Below the pieces are notes generated by a model. That model did not search any database and had not been told where the DNA came from. It was given only the letters and a program-made list of their open reading frames with translations. Below are positions 1,753 through 32,546 of a DNA stretch of 34,062 bases, one piece after another. Position 1 is the first letter of the stretch, and the number at the start of each line of letters is the position of its first letter. Location of the stretch: the NCBI GenBank assembly GCA_025360225.1, contig JANYCN010000034.1, forward strand, positions 1 through 34,062, given 5' to 3'. Both the position numbers and the translations under genes were made by a program. The stretch is from Actinomycetes bacterium (GTDB taxonomy: Bacteria; Actinomycetota; Thermoleophilia; Gaiellales; F1-60-MAGs149).

Positions 1753-3522
1753 TCAGAACGCTGCCTCCGGGAATCCCATGACGCTCGCCTTGCCGGCGGT
1801 GATCTCCCGGGCGAGCGCACCGGCCTCTGGGAGCACGCGGGCGATGTAGAACCGTCCGGAGGCGAGCTTCGCCTCGCGGAAGGCTGGCGTGCACGTCGCC
1901 TGCGGGTCAAGCGCGGCGGCAGCCATCCGGGCCCACATGTAGCAGGAGGCGGTCAGGAAGAAGAGCCGCAGGTAGTCAGTGGCTGCCGCGCCAGCCTCCT
2001 CGCGATCGCTCGCGCCGCGCTCGCCAAGCCAGAGCGTCGTGGCGCGTAGCGTGTCGATCGCCCGCGTCGTGGGGTCGACGAACTCGGCCAGCGTCGGGTT
2101 CCCGCGTTGTCTCTCGAGCCAGGCGTCGGCTGGGTGGAAGAACCGTCGCAGCAGCCGACCGGCGCCTTCCGGCAGCTTCCGACCGACGAGGTCGAGCGCC
2201 TGGATGCCGTTCGTTCCCTCGTAGATCGGGGCAATTCGTGCATCGCGAACGTACTGCTCGATGCCCGTCTCGCGGATGTATCCGGCGCCGCCGAAGACGC
2301 CGAGGGCGGTCGACGTCGCCTCCCAGCCGAGCTCGGTGAGGCCGGCTTTGAGGATCGGCGTCATCAACGCAACGAGGTCGTCCGCCGCGGCGCGGACGAC
2401 CGGGTCGTCGTGACGGTGCGCCACGTCGAGCTCGATCGCCGTCCAGAGGGCCAGCGCCCGTCCCGCCTCCACCTGCGAGCGGACGCGCAGGAGCGCGCGC
2501 CGGACGTCCGGGTGCACGATGATCGGGTCCGCCTCGAGGTCGGGCCGCGCCGCGCCGCCGAGGGCGCGGCCCTGGAGACGCACTCGCGCGTAGCGGACGG
2601 CGCGCTGGTACGCGCCGTCGGCGAGTCCAAGCCCGTGGATCCCCACCGACAACCGGGCGGCGTTCATCATCGTGAACATCGCTCGCATCCCGCCATGTGG
2701 CTCTCCAACAAGCTCACCCCAAGCGTCCTCGAAGGTGAGCACGCACGTCGCCGATGCCCGGATGCCCATCTTGTGTTCGAGCGACGTGCAGGTCACGCCG
2801 TTTCGCTTCCCGTCCGCGGCGATCTTCGGCACGATCAGCAGCGAGATGCCCTTCGTCCCCGATGGTGCGCCGGGGAGACGGGCGAGGACGAGGTGGACGA
2901 TGTTCTCCGTGAGGTCGTGGTCGCCGGCCGTGATGAAGACCTTCGTCCCCGACACGCGGTATCCACCGGCCTCGTCGGGATCTGCGCGCGTGCGGATCAG
3001 ACCCAGGTCAGTGCCTGCGTGCGCCTCGGTCAGGCACATCGTGCCGGCAACCCGACCGCTGGCGAGGAGCGGCAGGAGCCGGTCGCGCTGCTCCGCTGAC
3101 CCGTGCAGACGAAGGGCGTGGTACGCGCCGTGGCGGAGCGTGAGGTAGGTGGCGAAGCTGAGGTTCGTCGCACAGAGAAATTCCTCGAACACGACCTGGG
3201 TGGTGTGGGGGAGACCGCTCCCGCCGTACTCTGGGTCGCAGGTCAGGCCCGGCCATCCGCCGGCGACGAGCGTCCGCCACGCCTCGCGGAAGCCGGCTGG
3301 CGTGGAGACGCCATCAGGGCCGAGCGTCGCACCAGCCCCGTCACCTGGCAGGTTGAGCGGCGCGAGCTCGTTCGCGCAGAACGTTCCAGCCTCGGCGAGC
3401 ACGTCGAGCACCGCGTCGAGCGTCGACTCAGCCTGGCCAGGAAGCCCCGTGACCCGCCCGTCAAAGTCCAGCACGTCGCCAAGCAGGAAGCGCACGTCCT
3501 CCAGTGGTGGGCGGTAGGACAT
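1753..3522 (-). CDS. Long-form acyl-CoA dehydrogenase (DmdC-like)
   Basis: A 589-residue FAD acyl-CoA dehydrogenase of the long type, which includes 3-methylmercaptopropionyl-CoA dehydrogenase (DmdC) and several uncharacterised FadE proteins. It introduces the alpha-beta double bond into an acyl-CoA. The N-terminus (PPLEDVRFLLGDVLDFDG) is typical of this subgroup. GGWPGLTCDPEYGGSGLPH, CLTEAHAGTDLGL, TKVFITAGDHDLTENIVH and IYEGTNGIQALDLVGRKL follow in the expected order, and a roughly 140-residue C-terminal helical extension (YLRLFFLTASCYMWARM) completes the long form. Length matches the family (about 590-600). Its ATG overlaps the upstream hydroxyacyl-CoA dehydrogenase stop by one base (TGATG), so translational coupling is likely. 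The substrate cannot be read from sequence; DMSP-pathway function is not implied. Confidence 0.88.
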   Translation of the reverse strand: MSYRPPLEDVRFLLGDVLDFDGRVTGLPGQAESTLDAVLDVLAEAGTFCANELAPLNLPGDGAGATLGPDGVSTPAGFREAWRTLVAGGWPGLTCDPEYGGSGLPHTTQVVFEEFLCATNLSFATYLTLRHGAYHALRLHGSAEQRDRLLPLLASGRVAGTMCLTEAHAGTDLGLIRTRADPDEAGGYRVSGTKVFITAGDHDLTENIVHLVLARLPGAPSGTKGISLLIVPKIAADGKRNGVTCTSLEHKMGIRASATCVLTFEDAWGELVGEPHGGMRAMFTMMNAARLSVGIHGLGLADGAYQRAVRYARVRLQGRALGGAARPDLEADPIIVHPDVRRALLRVRSQVEAGRALALWTAIELDVAHRHDDPVVRAAADDLVALMTPILKAGLTELGWEATSTALGVFGGAGYIRETGIEQYVRDARIAPIYEGTNGIQALDLVGRKLPEGAGRLLRRFFHPADAWLERQRGNPTLAEFVDPTTRAIDTLRATTLWLGERGASDREEAGAAATDYLRLFFLTASCYMWARMAAAALDPQATCTPAFREAKLASGRFYIARVLPEAGALAREITAGKASVMGFPEAAF

Positions 3523-5648
3523 CAGTTCCGCAACGCCTTCCCGGTGGCGAGCATGTGCTCCATCCGCGCGAGGCTCTTGTCCTGATGGAGGAGCGCGACG
3601 AGGGCGTCGCGCTCCAGGTCGTAGACCGCCTGCAGCTCGACCGGTGTCGTCACGTCCGCGTCGCCGCCGGAGAGGACGTGCGCGAGCGCGCCGGCGACGA
3701 CGGCGTCGTGCTCGAGCGCCTCCCCGGCAGCAACCCGTTGGGCGATCGATAGACGTAGGGCGGCGGCGCCTGCCTGACCGGGAAGGCGCAACGGCGGCGG
3801 CGCGGCTGGCCGGTACCCGTCCGCGAGCTCCAGCGCACGGCGCTTCGCATCGCCGAGCACGCGCTCCCGGTTCATCGTGATCCCGTCCGTCGGACGGAGG
3901 AAGCCGAGCTCGCGTGCGTGTGCCGCAGAACGCGACACCTGTGCGAGGGCGATCACCCGGAAGGCCTCAGCGACCGGCGGCATCGGCCCCTGGTGTCCGT
4001 GGCGCTCCGTCATGCGGACGAGCATCTGGACGCAGCCGCCCCAGCCCGGGACGATCCCCACCCCTGCCTCGACGAGCCCCATGTACAGCTCGGCATGGGC
4101 CTGGATCGCGTCCGCGTGCAGACAGATCTCGCAACCACCGCCGAGGGCCATCCCGGCGGGTGCCGCCACAACCGGAAACGCGGCTGCACGGAGCGCGGCG
4201 AACGCTCCCTGGCCAGCCTGCACGCCAAGCGCGAGCTGGTTCCAGGCGCCAACGTTGGCCGACAGGAGGACACCGGCGAGGTTCGCGCCGACGGAGAAGC
4301 TCTCCGCCTCGTTGGCGATCACCAACGCGCGGAACCCGTCGGACCCGCACAGCACCAGCGTCTCGAGGGCCAGCGAGATGATCGCGCCGTCGAGCGCGTT
4401 CATCTTCGTCGTGAACTCGAGGCAGAGGACGCCGTCACCGATGTCCCAGAGGCACGCCGAACGGTTCCGGCGAACGGGCTCGGCATCCTGGCGCAGCGCG
4501 CGCAGCGAGATGATGCCCGGCCTCCGAGGCGGTCGGCGTGGGGCCGGCGCTCCTCGCCGATCAGCGAGCATCGTGAACGGCCCGGCTCGCCAGCCGTAGC
4601 CGGTCTCCATCGCCTGGTCGACGACCGCCGGGTCGCCGCTCACCTCGTCAAGCACGTGCTCCGCGTAGGCGAGCGTCGCTGCAACGACGTCGCGGGCGTA
4701 CTCGGCGCTCGTTGGATCATCACCGCGCGAGCGCGTGCTCGGGCGGTAGGTCCCCGTCGCGAGATCGAGCGCCTCCTTCCGCTTCCCGCTGGCATCCCGC
4801 TCGAGGCGGTAGAAGCCGCCGTCACCCTTGCGGCCCGTGTGGCCGCCCGCGACGAGCTGCTCGAGGAGGCCGATCGGCCTCGCGATCGACCGCATCGGAT
4901 CGTCCGGAGCGAGTCGCTCGTCGAAGCTACGCGTCACGTGGAGCGAGAGGTCGATGCCGACCAGGTCAAGGAGGCCGAAGACCCCCGACCTCGGTGATCC
5001 GAAGGCATGGCTGATCGCGGCGTCGGCGGCCTCGATCGCCAGCCCTCGTTCGGCGGCGAGCGCGACAGCCGTATCGATCCAGTAGCCGCCAAGGCGGTTG
5101 GCGATGAACCCCGGGGTGTCGTTGCTGCGCACAACGACCTTCCCGAGCATCACATCGGCGAACGCCTCGACCGCGGCGACGGCGTCCGACCGTGTGTGCG
5201 CGGCCGCAACGACCTCCAACAGCCGGAGGTACCGTGGCGGGTTGAAGAAGTGCGTGATGAGGATGTCCGGATCGTCCGGCGCGAGCTCGCAGAGGGGGAT
5301 CGTGGACGTGTTCGAGCTGACGATCGACCGGTCGCCGCGCACCTGTGCGAGGTCGTCGTAGAGCGTCCGTTTCGCGTCGACGTCCTCGCGCACGGCCTCG
5401 ATGATCCAGTCGCAGCCGGCGACCAGCGCGAGCGCGTCGGGGAGGTCGCCGGTCGTCACGAGACGCACGGCCTCGCGGGTCATGAACGCCTCTGGCTCCT
5501 CCCGAAGCGCACGCCCGATCGCGGCCTCGGCACCGCCCCGGACGACGTCCAGCAGCACGACGGGCACGGAGGCGTTCGCAACCTGTGCGGCGATGCCGGT
5601 GCCCATCACGCCGGCACCGATCACGGCGACGCGGTTGATCGTGGTCAC
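3522..5648 (-). CDS. 3-hydroxyacyl-CoA dehydrogenase / enoyl-CoA hydratase fusion (FadN-like)
   Basis: A 708-residue bifunctional beta-oxidation enzyme in the FadN arrangement, dehydrogenase first and hydratase second. Residues 7-18 hold the NAD-binding GAGVMGTG; SSNTSTIPL and ITHFFNPPRYLRLLEVV are the dehydrogenase substrate motifs. The C-terminal third has the crotonase signatures, with the oxyanion-hole segment GMALGGGCE and the catalytic-Glu segment GLVEAGVGIVPGWGG. The start is GTG at 5648, overlapping the thiolase stop as GTGA; the frame extends upstream, but only into thiolase coding sequence. An oddity lies at about residues 356-388: the region between GPFTML and ISLRAL is an Arg/Pro-rich linker, roughly 45 residues shorter than I remember in FadN, so the second dehydrogenase helical lobe looks trimmed. 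Confidence 0.88.
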   Translation of the reverse strand: MTTINRVAVIGAGVMGTGIAAQVANASVPVVLLDVVRGGAEAAIGRALREEPEAFMTREAVRLVTTGDLPDALALVAGCDWIIEAVREDVDAKRTLYDDLAQVRGDRSIVSSNTSTIPLCELAPDDPDILITHFFNPPRYLRLLEVVAAAHTRSDAVAAVEAFADVMLGKVVVRSNDTPGFIANRLGGYWIDTAVALAAERGLAIEAADAAISHAFGSPRSGVFGLLDLVGIDLSLHVTRSFDERLAPDDPMRSIARPIGLLEQLVAGGHTGRKGDGGFYRLERDASGKRKEALDLATGTYRPSTRSRGDDPTSAEYARDVVAATLAYAEHVLDEVSGDPAVVDQAMETGYGWRAGPFTMLADRRGAPAPRRPPRRPGIISLRALRQDAEPVRRNRSACLWDIGDGVLCLEFTTKMNALDGAIISLALETLVLCGSDGFRALVIANEAESFSVGANLAGVLLSANVGAWNQLALGVQAGQGAFAALRAAAFPVVAAPAGMALGGGCEICLHADAIQAHAELYMGLVEAGVGIVPGWGGCVQMLVRMTERHGHQGPMPPVAEAFRVIALAQVSRSAAHARELGFLRPTDGITMNRERVLGDAKRRALELADGYRPAAPPPLRLPGQAGAAALRLSIAQRVAAGEALEHDAVVAGALAHVLSGGDADVTTPVELQAVYDLERDALVALLHQDKSLARMEHMLATGKALRN

Positions 5649-26295: not shown

Positions 26296-28373
26296 TGGAC
26301 ATCTCTGACTACCTGCCGATGTTCCTTGCCGAGGGGCGCGAGCATCTCCAGACGCTCAACCTCTCGCTGGTGAAGATCGAGCAGGAACCGAAGGACCGAG
26401 AGACGATCAACGACATCTTCCGCGTCGCGCACACCTTGAAGGGGATGAGCGCGACGATGGGCTTCGCGCGCATGGCGGCGTTGACGCACGAGATGGAGAA
26501 CGTCATGGAGGGCATGAAGACGAGCGAGCACGGCCTCGGTCGCGACGCCCTTGATGCCCTCTTCGGCTGCCTCGACGTGCTCGAGAGCCTCGTTGATGAG
26601 ATCGAGGAGAGCGGGTCGGAGGTGTCTGACCCGTCCGACCTCGTTGCCAAGCTGAAGCAGATCCGCACCGGCGAGATCGCCGCCGAGGCAGCGTTGCAGG
26701 GCGCCGCCCACGAGACGGCGAGCAGCGAGGTCGCTGAGGAGGACCTGAGCGACGCGAACGGCCCGGATGCCGAGGTCATCGCCTCGGTCGAGGCCTCCGG
26801 AATGGTCGTCGCCCGGGTCGACTTCGTCCTCGCCGCTGACGTCGACATGCCCGGCGTCCGCACCTACCTCGCGGTGCGCAAGGCCGAGGAGCACGGCGAG
26901 CTCTTGGCCTGCGAGCCCGACATCGGCGTGATCGAGCGCGGCGAGATCGAGACGACGGAGATCACGGTCTGGGTCGCGACGTCGGACGAGCTCGCCGCGG
27001 TTGCAGAGACGGTTCTGACGCAGGACGGGATCGCGACCTGCACGGCGACCCGCGCCGTCGCTGGCAAGCGACCAGCGGCCGCAGTGACCGCGAAGCCCGC
27101 CGAGCTGGTCGCAGCCGCCCCGCCCCTCGCAGCCGCCCCGACCCTCGCAGCAGCACCGCCACCGGTCGCCGCAAAGGAGACCGCGCCAGCCGCCGGTGGA
27201 GCGAAGCAGCACAAGGCGCAGACGGTGCGTGTCGAGGCCGAGCGCCTCGACCAGCTGATGCACATGATGGGCGAGATGGTGGTGCAGCGCACGCGGCTCG
27301 AGTCGATCGCGCAGCATGCCGGCCAGCCCGACCTGCAGACGGCAGTGAACGATCTCTCGCGCGTCGCCCAGTCGCTCCAGCAGATGGTCATGCAGGTACG
27401 GATGGTGCCGGTCGAGAGCGTCTTCATGCGCTTCCCGCGGATGGTGCGCGACATCGCATCGAAGCTGGGGAAGACGGTCGACCTGCAGATCAAGGGCGAG
27501 GACACCGAGCTCGATCGCACGGTCGTCGAGGCGCTCGGTGACCCGCTCGTGCATCTCGTGCGCAACGCGATGGACCACGGCCTTGAGGGGCCGGACGAGC
27601 GCACGGCGAACGGCAAGCCACCGGGAGGCACGCTCGAGATCTCGGCCGAGCACGCAGGCGGCGAGGTGCTGATCCGCGTGCGCGAGGACGGACGCGGCAT
27701 CAACGCCGCACGGGTCGCGAAGATCGCGGCCGAGCGCGGTCTGATCACCGCCGACCAGGTGCCGAACATCACGACGGAGGACGCGATCGAGCTCCTCTTC
27801 GAGCCCGGCTTCTCGACAGCAGAGGTGACGACGGACATCTCCGGACGCGGCGTCGGGATGGACGCGGTGCGCACGATGGTGCGCAACCTCGGCGGTGACT
27901 GCACGATCACGTCGGTCCTTGGCAAGGGCTCGACGGCGACGATCCGCCTGCCGCTGTCGCTGGCGATCCTGCCGGCGCTGCTGGTCGAGGTGAACGACGC
28001 GCCGTACGCCCTCCCCCTCGAGCGTGTCGAGCAGACGATCCGCATCTCCGACTACACGCTGCGCTCGATCAAGGGTGCGAAGGCGATCGTGCTGCGGGAG
28101 AAGATCCTGCCCCTCTACGACCTCGGCTGGCTCCTTGGCGGCACGTCGATCGACCCGACGAACGCCGCGGCGGTCGTCTGCCGCGCCGGTGCAAACCGCG
28201 TCGGCCTGCTCGTCGAGAAGCTCGTCGGCCAGCAGGAGCTGGTGACGCGACCGCTGCCGGCCGTGACCGACGCGCAGCGCGCGCTCGTCTCTGGCGGCGC
28301 GGTCCTCGGCAACGGGCAGATCGCGCTGATCGTCGACCTCGACGCCCTCGGCAAGCAGACGAAGGCGGCGTGA
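26295..28373 (+). CDS. cheA: Chemotaxis histidine kinase CheA
   Basis: 692 residues. Domains in order: HPt with phospho-acceptor His46 (RVAHTLKGMSATMGF); a CheY-binding P2-like domain at about 170-255; an Ala/Pro linker (about 262-300); dimerisation helices (LDQLMHMMGEMVVQRTR); HATPase with N-box LVRNAMDHGLE, REDGRGI and GRGVGMDAVR; and a C-terminal CheW-like regulatory domain. It phosphorylates CheY and CheB in response to receptors. ATG overlaps the cheR stop (TAATG). Confidence 0.95.
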   Translation: MDISDYLPMFLAEGREHLQTLNLSLVKIEQEPKDRETINDIFRVAHTLKGMSATMGFARMAALTHEMENVMEGMKTSEHGLGRDALDALFGCLDVLESLVDEIEESGSEVSDPSDLVAKLKQIRTGEIAAEAALQGAAHETASSEVAEEDLSDANGPDAEVIASVEASGMVVARVDFVLAADVDMPGVRTYLAVRKAEEHGELLACEPDIGVIERGEIETTEITVWVATSDELAAVAETVLTQDGIATCTATRAVAGKRPAAAVTAKPAELVAAAPPLAAAPTLAAAPPPVAAKETAPAAGGAKQHKAQTVRVEAERLDQLMHMMGEMVVQRTRLESIAQHAGQPDLQTAVNDLSRVAQSLQQMVMQVRMVPVESVFMRFPRMVRDIASKLGKTVDLQIKGEDTELDRTVVEALGDPLVHLVRNAMDHGLEGPDERTANGKPPGGTLEISAEHAGGEVLIRVREDGRGINAARVAKIAAERGLITADQVPNITTEDAIELLFEPGFSTAEVTTDISGRGVGMDAVRTMVRNLGGDCTITSVLGKGSTATIRLPLSLAILPALLVEVNDAPYALPLERVEQTIRISDYTLRSIKGAKAIVLREKILPLYDLGWLLGGTSIDPTNAAAVVCRAGANRVGLLVEKLVGQQELVTRPLPAVTDAQRALVSGGAVLGNGQIALIVDLDALGKQTKAA

Positions 28374-28969
28374 TGTCGGCCGATCCTGCCTACAACGAGC
28401 TCGAGCTCTCGGCGATCCAGGAGGTCGCGAACATCGGCACCGGTAACGCCGCAACGGCGCTCGCCCAGCTGATCAACCGTGCCGTTGACATCGGCGTGCC
28501 AAAGGCGGAGCTCGTGCCGCTCGCCGAGGCGGCCGAGCGCATCGGGCCGCTCGAGAGCATGGTCGTCGCGGTGTTGACCCCGGTGAAGGGCATGATGCCG
28601 GCTTCGATGTTGCTGGCCTTCCCGTACGAGTCGGCGGACGCGCTGTGCGGCATGCTCGGGTGCGCCGCCGACACGGAGATCGGCCACTCCTGCCTGCAGG
28701 AGATCGGCAACATCCTCACCGGGTCGTACACGACGGCGATCGCCGGAATGACGGGGATTGACATCGAGCCCGAGCCGCCGCTGCTGGCGTTCGACATGCT
28801 CGGCTCCGTGATCGACTCGGTCCTTGCACTGTCGGTCGAGACGAGCGACTCCGTGTTGTTCCTGCAGACCGCGATCACCGTCGAGGGCGAGCCGTGCAAC
28901 TTCGGCTTCCTCTTCGTCCCGCGCGAGGGTGCCGTTGACCAGCTCCTGATCGCGCTCGGGCTTGGGTGA
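28373..28969 (+). CDS. cheC: CheY-P phosphatase CheC
   Basis: 198 residues. Both CheC active sites are intact and match S-x3-E-x2-N-x22-P exactly: Ser13/Glu17/Asn20/Pro43 and Ser106/Glu110/Asn113 with Pro136. It dephosphorylates CheY-P and pairs with CheD in receptor adaptation. The start is ATG 28373 (TGATG with cheA); GTG 28370, immediately before, is equally possible. It is followed directly by cheD, as in Bacillus-type chemotaxis. Confidence 0.92.
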   Translation: MSADPAYNELELSAIQEVANIGTGNAATALAQLINRAVDIGVPKAELVPLAEAAERIGPLESMVVAVLTPVKGMMPASMLLAFPYESADALCGMLGCAADTEIGHSCLQEIGNILTGSYTTAIAGMTGIDIEPEPPLLAFDMLGSVIDSVLALSVETSDSVLFLQTAITVEGEPCNFGFLFVPREGAVDQLLIALGLG

Positions 28970-28976
28970 GCGGTCG

Positions 28977-29465
28977 ATGAGCGAGCGACACATGGTGCGG
29001 ATGGCCGAGCAGGCGATCTCGAACAAGGGAAGCGACGTCCTCGTCTCCCTCGGGCTCGGCTCCTGCATTGGCCTTGCGCTGATCGACGAGAGCGCCGGCG
29101 TCGCCGGACTCGTGCACATCGTTCTCCCGAGATCACCGGATAGCGGTCCCGGTTCGACGCCGTCGAAGTTCGCTGACACGGCGGTTCCCGGGCTGCTCGA
29201 GGCGGTGATGCGGGCCGGCGGCCGGAACGGTCGCCTGCGCGCCGTGCTCTGCGGCGGGGCCCACATGTTCGGCACCGCCGGGACGAACCCCGTCATGCAG
29301 ATCGGCGCGCGGAACGCGGAGAGCACGCTCGAGGCTCTCACGAGGCTCCGTATCCCGGTTCGCGCGAAGGACACGGGCGGTTCTTCCGGTCGCTCGATCG
29401 AGGTCAACGTCGCCTCCGGGGCCGTGTCGGTGCGCGGCGTCGGGCAACCATCGAAGCAGCTCTGA
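28977..29465 (+). CDS. cheD: Chemoreceptor glutamine deamidase CheD
   Basis: 162 residues. Catalytic Cys30 (GLGSCIGLAL) and His47 (GLVHIVLP) are present; the Thr that completes the described triad appears to be Ser24. FADTAVPGLLEAV and GGAHMF are also family motifs. It deamidates receptor glutamines and binds CheC. ATG 28977 is chosen over a TTG at 28962 that overlaps cheC. Confidence 0.91.
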   Translation: MSERHMVRMAEQAISNKGSDVLVSLGLGSCIGLALIDESAGVAGLVHIVLPRSPDSGPGSTPSKFADTAVPGLLEAVMRAGGRNGRLRAVLCGGAHMFGTAGTNPVMQIGARNAESTLEALTRLRIPVRAKDTGGSSGRSIEVNVASGAVSVRGVGQPSKQL

Positions 29466-29472
29466 GGAACCA

Positions 29473-29637
29473 ATGGCTGACGCGAAGCTCTCCCAAGGAT
29501 CGATTGACGACCTGATCGCCCAGTTGCTCGCTGGCGGCGGCGGTAGCGCGGCTGGCGATGGACCGGCGTTTGGAGATGACGGCCCTGTTGGCTTCGCCGA
29601 TACACCGGCTGACGCTCCCGAGGCGGACGCGGCGTAG
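29473..29637 (+). CDS. 54-residue free-standing FliM/FliY N-terminal-like peptide
   Basis: ATG with GAGGAA upstream, seven bases after cheD and two before fliM. The first 20 residues read KLSQGSIDDLIAQLLAGG, which follows the LSQxEIDxLL pattern that FliM and FliY use to bind CheY-P. The rest is a Gly/Ala/Asp-rich, acidic, probably disordered tail. It is in a different frame from fliM (29473 and 29640 differ by 167 bases), and fliM has its own LSQSEIDALL, so it is not a broken fliM start. The following FliY lacks this peptide. Likely a small CheY-P-binding protein or a detached FliY N-terminus; no family known to me. Confidence 0.7.
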   Translation: MADAKLSQGSIDDLIAQLLAGGGGSAAGDGPAFGDDGPVGFADTPADAPEADAA

Positions 29638-29639
29638 CG

Positions 29640-30650
29640 ATGGCGCACGGCAGCGACACCCTTAGCCAGTCCGAGATCGACGCGCTCCTCGCGGCGGTCG
29701 CGACGGCCCCTCCGTCGGCTGCGGGGGCCGAGCTGTCGACCGGCGTACGCGTCCAGAACATGGACTTCCGACGCCCGTCGAAGTTCAACAAGGACCAGCT
29801 GCGCACGCTCGAGATGCTGCACGACACGTTCGCCCGCCTCGGCTCGACCTACCTCTCGGGCGCGATGCGCAGCGTCGCCGACATCTCGGTGCTCGGCGCC
29901 GAGCAGGTCACCTACGGCGAGTTCATCTCGTCCCTGCCGGTCCCGGCGCTCACGGCGATCCTCGAGCTCGAGCCGCTCGGTACGAACGCGATCCTCGCGA
30001 TCGACCTACCGCTGGTCTTCTCGCTGATCGACCGTTTGCTCGGCGGCACGGGCCAGGGGGCGCCTCGCCTGCGCGAGCTGACCGACATCGAGCTCTCCCT
30101 CTCGCGCACGATCATCAACCGGCTCCTCGCAGAGCTGTCGACATCATGGTCGGAGCTCGTCGGCGTCGACTTTCGCCTGCGCCACACCGAGATGAACCCC
30201 CAGTTCGCGCAGATCGCGCCGCCGACCGAGCTGTCAGTGCTGCTGTCGTTCCAGCTCCGTGTTGCCGATTCAACAGGAGTGATGACGCTCTGCCTGCCCT
30301 GGCGGTCGATCGAGACCGTCGCTCCGAGCCTGACGGCAAACTCCTACTTCTCCGGCGTGCGCGCCGGCGTCGCTGGCCTTGACCTCACCGAGCCCCTTGC
30401 CAACGTCCTGATCGGCGTCCGGGCCGAGGTAGGGGCCGTCGACCTCTCGATCTCGGAGGTCCTGTCGCTGCGCGAGGGCGACGTCGTGCGCCTTGGCGTG
30501 CCCGTCGAGGACGGCATCACGTTGTTTGCCGGAGAGACCGCTGCCTACCGGGTCGTGCCGGGCGCCCATCGCCGACAGCTCGCCGTGCAGGTGCACGACC
30601 GGATCACACGGCCGCTCCCGCCCGCCGATGCCGATGGGGTCACACCGTGA
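29640..30650 (+). CDS. fliM: Flagellar motor switch protein FliM
   Basis: 336 residues. N-terminal CheY-P-binding peptide LSQSEIDALL (8-17), then the CheC-like middle domain (FNKDQLRTLEMLHDTFARLGSTYLS in its first helix, DRLLGGTG) and a C-terminal SpoA domain (LSISEVLSLREGDVVRLG, DGITLFAGETAAYRV). It forms the C-ring and transmits CheY-P binding to rotation. ATG 29640 stands two bases after the small peptide gene and its stop overlaps fliY by four bases. Confidence 0.94.
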   Translation: MAHGSDTLSQSEIDALLAAVATAPPSAAGAELSTGVRVQNMDFRRPSKFNKDQLRTLEMLHDTFARLGSTYLSGAMRSVADISVLGAEQVTYGEFISSLPVPALTAILELEPLGTNAILAIDLPLVFSLIDRLLGGTGQGAPRLRELTDIELSLSRTIINRLLAELSTSWSELVGVDFRLRHTEMNPQFAQIAPPTELSVLLSFQLRVADSTGVMTLCLPWRSIETVAPSLTANSYFSGVRAGVAGLDLTEPLANVLIGVRAEVGAVDLSISEVLSLREGDVVRLGVPVEDGITLFAGETAAYRVVPGAHRRQLAVQVHDRITRPLPPADADGVTP

Positions 30651-32170
30651 ACCACATCGAGGCGGTCGAACGGGCGACGGAGCTCACCGCCGGGGCGTGC
30701 GCCGAGGTGCTCGGCATCCTCGTCGGTGCCCCCGGGTCGTTCACCGACGTCAGCGTTGACGAAGAGCCTGATCCGTGGGGCTCGGTGACGTTCCCGCTCG
30801 TCGCGGTGCGCATCGGCTTCATCGAGGGGATTACCGGCGAGGACATGTTCGTGATCGAGCCGGAGCAGGCGCGACAGCTCGCCACATCGATGATGGGGAT
30901 GGCGGAGACCGACGCGACGGGCGAGCTGAACGAGATCGAGATCTCGGCGGTGTCCGAGGCGATGAACCAGATGATGGGGAAGGTCGCGACGGCGCTCGCC
31001 GAGGCCCTCTCCCGAACGACGGACATCGCAACGCCGCAGACCCGCTACCTCAAGAACCAGGAGGCAGCCGAGGCGCTCGGCGAGGCACGCTACACCTCGC
31101 GTTTCACGCTGAAGGCCGGCAAGCTCACCGCGAGGATCGTCCAGCTCGTGCCGCAGGATCTCGCCGACGTGCTGCTCGCGGCGTTCGACAGCGCCGCGCT
31201 CGCAGAGGCGGTGCTTGGCAGCGAGCACGCGAACAAGATCGCCCGGCTCAACGACGAGACCTACGCGGCGGTGGAGCGCACCGCAAGGATCGCCGCTGAG
31301 TCATCGGCCGAGGTGTTGACCACCCTCCTCGGCTCGAAGGTGACGGCGACGCTGCCGGAGATCGACGTGAAGCCCGTCGACCCGCTCGGCGAGCTCAGCT
31401 ACCCGCTCGTCACCGTCGAGGTCTCCTACGTCTCGGGCGTCAACGGCGCGAACCTGTTCGCCCTCACGCCGGCGCAGTCAGCGACCTTGGCCGCCGTGAT
31501 GATGGGGTCGGACGAGCCGACCGGCGACGGGCTCTCGGAGCTCGAGCTCTCGGCGGTCTCTGAGGCAATGAACCAGATGATGGGCTCGGCGACGAACATT
31601 CTCGCCGACACCCTGAGCCTTGACATCGAGGTTGCGCCGCCGGTCTGCGAGGTGATCCAGAACGTCGAACAGGCACGTGCGACGTTCGAGCATCCGGCGT
31701 ACTGCGCGCGGTTCCGGATCGTCTCGGACAAGCTCACGGCGGACGTCGTGCAGCTCGTGCCGGCCGACTTCGCGCTGCACCTGCAGTCTGCGTTCGCCGC
31801 TGCAGACGTCGGACGCGCTGTAGCCGCTGCCCCGATCGGCGGGGACGTCGCGCCCGCAGCGAGCGCGAGCAGCGCGACCGCGGCGGCGAACAAGGCGGCA
31901 GCGACGGCGCCTGCAGGAGCGCTGCATCCCGACACGTTCCGCACGGTGAAGGTGCGTGTCTCGGCCGAGCTCGGCCGCTCCAAGCTCGAGGTCGCGCGGG
32001 TGATGAACATGCCTCCCGGAGCGATCGTCGAGCTCGATCGCACTCCCACTGACCCCATCGACATTCTCGTCAACGGCCGGCCGTTCGCCCGAGCGCGCCT
32101 GGTCCTCGTGGACGGCGAGTACGCCGCCCAGATCGTATCCCTGGAACCACCGCTGCTCAAGACAGCGTAG
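30647..32170 (+). CDS. fliY: Enlarged FliY/FliN-type switch protein with two CheC-like modules
   Basis: 507 residues against about 380 for known FliY. Two tandem CheC-like modules (about 1-190 and 205-390, period 202) are followed by an Ala-rich linker (390-425) and a C-terminal SpoA/FliN domain (432-507: VRVSAELGRSKLEVARVM). Each module keeps one S-x3-E-x2-N-x22-P phosphatase signature (Glu104/Asn107/Pro130 and Glu306/Asn309/Pro332), inside SAVSEAMNQMMG. The first half of each module lacks a second site. There is no N-terminal LSQxEIDxLL peptide. GTG start overlaps the fliM stop. It is the C-ring component and probably the main CheY-P phosphatase. Confidence 0.9.
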   Translation: MNHIEAVERATELTAGACAEVLGILVGAPGSFTDVSVDEEPDPWGSVTFPLVAVRIGFIEGITGEDMFVIEPEQARQLATSMMGMAETDATGELNEIEISAVSEAMNQMMGKVATALAEALSRTTDIATPQTRYLKNQEAAEALGEARYTSRFTLKAGKLTARIVQLVPQDLADVLLAAFDSAALAEAVLGSEHANKIARLNDETYAAVERTARIAAESSAEVLTTLLGSKVTATLPEIDVKPVDPLGELSYPLVTVEVSYVSGVNGANLFALTPAQSATLAAVMMGSDEPTGDGLSELELSAVSEAMNQMMGSATNILADTLSLDIEVAPPVCEVIQNVEQARATFEHPAYCARFRIVSDKLTADVVQLVPADFALHLQSAFAAADVGRAVAAAPIGGDVAPAASASSATAAANKAAATAPAGALHPDTFRTVKVRVSAELGRSKLEVARVMNMPPGAIVELDRTPTDPIDILVNGRPFARARLVLVDGEYAAQIVSLEPPLLKTA

Positions 32171-32186
32171 AAGGAGGAACATCGGT

Positions 32187-32546
32187 ATGGCACGAGTGCT
32201 CATCGCAGACGACGCAGCCTTCATGAGGATGATGATCAAGAACATCCTCAGCCAGAACGGCCACGAGGTGGTCGGAGAGGCCGAGAACGGTGCGCAGGCC
32301 GTCACGAAGTACGCCGAGCTGAAGCCCGACGTGACCACGATGGACATCACGATGCCCGAGATGGACGGCATCGCCGCCCTCAAGGGCATCCTCGCGGCCG
32401 ACCCGACCGCGAAGATCGTGATGTGCTCGGCACTCGGCCAGGAGGCGAAGGTGATCGAGTCGATCCGCTCCGGCGCGAAGGACTTCGTCGTGAAGCCCTT
32501 CCAGCAGGATCGCGTCCTCTCGGCGGTCGCCAAGGCTCTGGGGTGA
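32187..32546 (+). CDS. cheY: Chemotaxis response regulator CheY
   Basis: 119 residues, a single receiver domain. Asp8/Asp9, phospho-acceptor Asp53 (MDITMPEMDG), Ser81 and Lys103 (VKPF) are all present. AAFMRMMIKNIL is typical of Gram-positive CheY. AGAAGGAGG precedes the ATG with good spacing. It binds FliM, perhaps the 54-residue peptide, and is dephosphorylated by FliY and CheC. Last gene of the operon; a hairpin follows. Confidence 0.94.
   Translation: MARVLIADDAAFMRMMIKNILSQNGHEVVGEAENGAQAVTKYAELKPDVTTMDITMPEMDGIAALKGILAADPTAKIVMCSALGQEAKVIESIRSGAKDFVVKPFQQDRVLSAVAKALG

Follow-up and report, generated by a model that had tools for sequence, protein, structure and literature searches.

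What is a gene of only 54 codons doing between cheD and fliM, and could its product dock on CheY-P without being attached to a motor protein? The window (the whole stretch of DNA that was analysed, 34,062 nucleotides) carries cheW, cheB, cheR, cheA, cheC, cheD, the small ORF, fliM, fliY and cheY in that order, all on the forward strand. We assigned cheA, cheC, cheD, fliM, fliY and cheY with Pfam, and cheW, cheB and cheR were read from the sequence. The features of the locus are as follows.

28373..28969, forward strand: cheC (Pfam PF04509), with two S-x3-E-x2-N-x22-P phosphatase motifs by motif scan
28977..29465, forward strand: cheD (Pfam PF03975, E 6e-27)
29464..29468, forward strand: possible ribosome-binding site GAGGA, proposed from sequence alone, overlapping the cheD stop codon and lying 4 nt 5' of the small-ORF ATG
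29473..29637, forward strand: small gene for a candidate free-standing, CheY-P-docking-like micro-protein; intact 54 codons plus stop (ATG at 29473, TAG ending at 29637)
29488..29517, forward strand: docking-like motif LSQGSIDDLI, codons 6-15, with the LSQxxIDxL positions common to FliM and FliY
29494..29535, forward strand: predicted helix, codons 8-21 (AlphaFold2, pLDDT about 91 over residues 11-20)
29536..29634, forward strand: Gly-rich acidic tail, predicted to be unstructured (pLDDT 55-63) and little conserved in the comparison with genome G003
29640..30650, forward strand: fliM (Pfam PF02154, E 2e-56)
29661..29690, forward strand: FliM's own docking peptide, LSQSEIDALL, seen in the sequence and with the leave-out profile
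30647..32170, forward strand: fliY, with two CheC/CheX-like domains and a SpoA domain; its GTG start overlaps the fliM stop
32187..32546, forward strand: cheY (Pfam PF00072), the presumed binding partner

The small ORF is present where the original prediction had placed it, between genes that Pfam identifies as cheD and fliM, with 7 nt from the cheD stop to its start and 2 nt from its stop to the fliM ATG. Its 54-aa product, MADAKLSQGSIDDLIAQLLAGGGGSAAGDGPAFGDDGPVGFADTPADAPEADAA, contains 10 D/E residues against 1 K/R. AlphaFold2, given an alignment of two sequences, predicted a helix only at the motif and gave the tail low confidence, in line with the acidic disordered tail that had been proposed. 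Pfam and NCBIfam searches with the small protein returned no match, whether to a CheC-like domain, to a SpoA domain or to any other family, and searches of PDB sequences and plasmids gave nothing useful; the PDB matches were agglutinins, aligned via the Gly-rich tail, and were rejected. Lacking CheC-like and SpoA domains, the product is neither a FliM/FliY switch protein nor a FliN. Nor is it a CheZ: the motif lies at the N-terminal end of the protein, and no other domain was recognised.

Within the family to which the window belongs, fliM was found in three genomes: that of the window (G000), G001 and G003. The last is represented by contig VFJZ01000007.1, from an uncultured Actinomycetota bin whose FliM is 79-80% identical to the window's. 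G003 has a syntenic ortholog of the small ORF in the equivalent slot (L002:1303-1491, 62 aa), which begins MGDEILSQSAIDALLASLAAADEP and ends 9 nt before fliM. Its peptide, LSQSAIDALL, is more canonical than that of the window, with AIDALL where the window has SIDDLI. Over the N-terminal 24 residues, 11 are identical between the two proteins, including all six that define the motif (hypergeometric P 0.003). Synonymous distances between G000 and G003 are about 0.6-0.8 in fliM and fliY, and across them the start, the frame and the six motif positions of the small ORF have been kept. In G001, only 14 nt separate the cheD stop from the fliM start, with no small gene in the slot, and the peptide profile search found no further motif ORF in this assembly, which is only 70% complete. 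Since FliY is 72% identical between G000 and G003 and 56-57% identical between either of these and G001, G001 is the outgroup; one gain before the G000/G003 split and a loss in G001 would both fit. Of the three flagellated genomes in the family, two therefore have the small gene, which was seen nowhere else in the survey, so that conservation of start, frame and motif, on which the original prediction was to be judged, extends to one relative and is very narrow.

The fliM contig of G001 (G001:C348) is unusual in other respects. We did not find cheA, cheR or cheC on it, and at about 3300-4360 of locus L038 (minus strand) the start of a CheB-like receiver runs into a C-terminal CheD end. Either a large segment was deleted here or the junction comes from assembly.

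The specificity of the motif was assessed against 4876 mechanically called ORFs, 30 aa or longer, taken from the window and every locus fetched. We looked for the pattern [LIVM][ST]Q..[IV]D.[LIM] among the first 22 residues and obtained 32 hits (overlapping loci count some genes twice or more); apart from the two small ORFs, every one is a FliM or a FliY. In both small ORFs, LSQxxIDxL occupies positions 6-14. A profile built without either small ORF gave 45.7 bits for the docking peptide of the window's FliM, whose N-terminal peptide reads MAHGSDTLSQSEIDALL, and 30.5 bits for the G003 ortholog (E 1.2e-6 for one genome). The first 30 residues of the window copy scored 0.4 bits, which is inside the shuffle range. 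The original statement that the product closely follows the FliM/FliY peptide thus needs qualifying: LSQxxIDxL is kept, but the change from EIDALL to SIDDLI retains only 3 of 6 positions and the leave-out score is poor. A low profile score does not preclude binding, because the CheY-binding helix at the C-terminus of E. coli CheZ scores 2.9 bits and an authentic FliM start, in genome G971, reads EIDDLL. High scores from profiles that included the small ORFs were discarded as circular.

The small-ORF frame has the top codon score among the six frames in the window genome and in G003 alike; the score is weakly positive in the window copy (0.06 bits per codon) and 0.42 bits in the G003 copy, which combines typical codon use with the canonical motif. 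Third-position GC is 0.67 in the window copy, compared to 0.86-0.92 in its neighbours, and 0.94 in the G003 copy. Taken alone, the window motif is poor, and it is the apparent descent from an ancestor shared with the G003 copy that carries the case.

A survey for other free-standing versions used two profiles. Peptide profile A1 was searched against 77 flagellated genomes of the class and 396 Actinomycetota, which are partly overlapping sets, and the broader profile A2 against 299 genomes from the phylum of G757, with matches in 230. Across these approximately 760 genomes, no other short version appeared among the matches listed, although one that had diverged as far as the window copy could escape. 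The sole other candidate of micro-protein size listed, a 55-aa frame in G971:C133, is a FliM truncated where its contig stops, and a weak match in the window's own genome (G000:C53, E 0.16) is not significant.

Related peptides also occur outside the window, on FliN, which in the window's family carries an N-terminal stretch, probably disordered, with LSQEEIEKLL-like peptides:

L060:1108-1743 (G000:C60): FliN with two peptides, MADGLSQEEIEKLL and LSPEEIAALI
L058 (G001:C338), minus strand: FliN with two peptides
L059 (G003:C35): FliN with four peptides and GGGS-type spacers, two units of which read GGGSLSADEIAALIA

No such peptides are present in the FliN-type proteins fetched from families f2, f3, f4, f8, f10 and f11. 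Most of the FliN repeats score poorly in the leave-out profile, and to take them for docking peptides is to interpret the pattern. The small peptide had been described as standing alone, which describes the protein accurately, but elsewhere in the genome FliM has its own copy and FliN, which the original prediction could not have seen, two similar peptides. Other N-terminal elaborations were seen among these proteins. A SpoA protein beside fliM in family f11 (G232, L054:91-732, minus strand) repeats another unit, LPTAEEMRARYADLMEED / LPSPEEMRARYADLMKDE, at its N-terminus, and the FliN of family f4 (L039-L042, L071-L073, L079) has a long N-terminal domain (…NEDATGFSDILIGG…AFSDML…) with a CheC-like look.

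We tentatively favour, as the most likely reading, that the small gene encodes a detached CheY-P-docking module, a putative soluble binder or competitor. This reading is based on the ORF and its place, one ortholog, the shared motif positions, the predicted helix and the FliN peptides of the family. We counted in its favour the canonical G003 ortholog, the six conserved residues, the specificity of the pattern, the codon scores, the helix, the T. maritima-type CheY and the multiplication in FliN. Against it we counted the failure of the leave-out profile to recognise the window copy, the low third-position GC, the restriction to two genomes, the lack of the gene in G001 and the dN/dS of the small-ORF pair, which is moderately low over very few sites.

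If the reading is right, the N-terminal helix would dock on the alpha4-beta5-alpha5 face of activated CheY, which is the face that binds the FliM N-terminal helix (PMC11528121). The CheY encoded in the operon is near T. maritima CheY (PDB 1TMY, 4IGA; E 5e-47), and 4IGA is cited in PMC9126983 as that protein complexed with the FliM N-terminal region. A single-domain protein bound at this face could compete, buffer or stabilise the active form; here it would compete with FliM and FliN for CheY-P and buffer the free CheY-P available to the motor. We propose a soluble competitor or buffer because switch, phosphatase and membrane domains are all absent from the small protein. It need not stand in for a missing motor peptide, since FliM keeps its own and FliN has two to four similar ones. 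Of the roles first suggested for the gene, that of a soluble CheY-P binder or competitor is possible. As to origin, the docking module was probably duplicated and then separated from FliM or FliN.

Almost as likely as a soluble binder or competitor is a by-product: a tandem copy of the FliM/FliN docking module that was cut by a stop codon and is now translated by default, decaying and with no selected function. The small ORF and fliM of G003 share a reading frame, interrupted by a single TAG (the frames differ in the window), and this arrangement suggests a two-peptide FliM N-terminus cut in two, a hint that bears on origin rather than on function. FliN shows module multiplication in the family, and a by-product would also account for a gene found in two genomes only, whose window copy has lost 3 of 6 EIDALL residues and has a low third-position GC. 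It accounts less well for a start, a frame and six motif positions that are kept in both genomes despite synonymous distances of about 0.6-0.8, or for the canonical motif and typical codon use of the G003 copy. A fusion of the small ORF to fliM by readthrough or frameshifting was rejected, as the shared frame of G003 is not conserved in the window.

The adjacent FliY offers another role. As originally predicted, no docking peptide is present in the sequence of the window's FliY (30647-32170), which has an S-x3-E-x2-N-x22-P phosphatase motif in each CheC/CheX-like half, ahead of the SpoA domain. A hidden upstream N-terminus was rejected, since the G003 FliY frame opens just 12 codons before the GTG and contains no motif. 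The small protein, encoded near fliM and fliY, might attach to FliY or the C-ring and supply in trans the peptide that FliY lacks; in family f5, both FliM and FliY carry the peptide. However, families f2, f3 and f10 have the window's order cheA-cheC-cheD-fliM-fliY-cheY and a peptide-less FliY, yet no small ORF. Furthermore, FliM and FliN already have such peptides, and the tail, which would be needed for attachment, is hardly conserved. We therefore consider a trans-acting motor part, one of the original proposals, to be unlikely. The proposal of a phosphatase adaptor is likewise weakened, as no feature of the small protein indicates a phosphatase-binding element.

The two-domain FliY without a docking peptide is partly common to families f2, f3 and f10. 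FliM starts in these families (L043, L044, L053, L055) have drifted from LSQxEIDALL, for example to LSNEEVAALV and LSNEEVAALVEAA, and the profile barely recognises them. These families may have altered their CheY docking.

Less likely again is a coupling ORF, whose translation would aid ribosome start at fliM and whose peptide would be irrelevant. The 2 nt between its stop and the fliM ATG, with no clear ribosome site 5' of fliM in the window, would suit such a role, but the motif positions are preferentially conserved (P 0.003), the gap in G003 is 9 nt and G001 manages without the small ORF. That the ORF is a chance frame and no gene is highly improbable: the window copy has a non-significant leave-out score and an only weakly positive codon score, but G003 shares slot, start and motif, and the pattern occurs in 0 unrelated ORFs among the 4876.

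A detached docking module remains the preferred reading, and a free docking peptide of this kind would act on the chemotaxis signal as a buffer or competitor with a gene of its own. A bolder and rather doubtful extension treats the docking peptide of the whole family as a multiplied, separable module, with one copy on FliM, two to four on FliN and one free copy that would titrate CheY-P away from the motor's sites and thereby set the switching threshold. A free docking peptide and the multi-peptide FliN would together offer a natural experiment on how motor sensitivity depends on the number of CheY-P docking sites and on their tethering. The available part of a survey of actinobacterial flagella (PMC10746217), which sought FliM, FliN, FliY and SwrD among motor proteins, mentions no such small gene. 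In agreement with the original prediction, no free-standing docking peptide was found in the literature searched, a partial selection, and neither was a FliN with several.

Known docking peptides are tethered, either to motor proteins or to the phosphatase CheZ. The small ORF resembles the FliM/FliY docking peptide (EIDALL) in its N-terminal LSQxxIDxL, in a predicted short helix followed by a flexible stretch, and in its operon. It differs in that the peptide is unattached to a CheC-like or SpoA domain and reads SIDDLI in the window and AIDALL in G003. EIDAL motifs have been described on FliM, with sporadic occurrences on FliN and FliY (PMC6946799); the FliN motifs are the same kind of peptide, but the small protein is a separate gene product without a SpoA domain. 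The helix with which CheZ binds CheY, at its C-terminus (E. coli ...ASQDQVDDLLDSLGF), shares SQxx(I/V)DDL and is likewise a docking peptide outside the motor, and CheZ and FliM use a common CheY face (PMC3774744). However, CheZ has a phosphatase body and a C-terminal peptide, and the small protein has neither. Finally, FliY of the Bacillus subtilis type unites a docking peptide and a CheC-like phosphatase in one switch protein. The window's operon also has both elements but splits them between genes, with the one for the peptide placed upstream of fliM rather than next to fliY.
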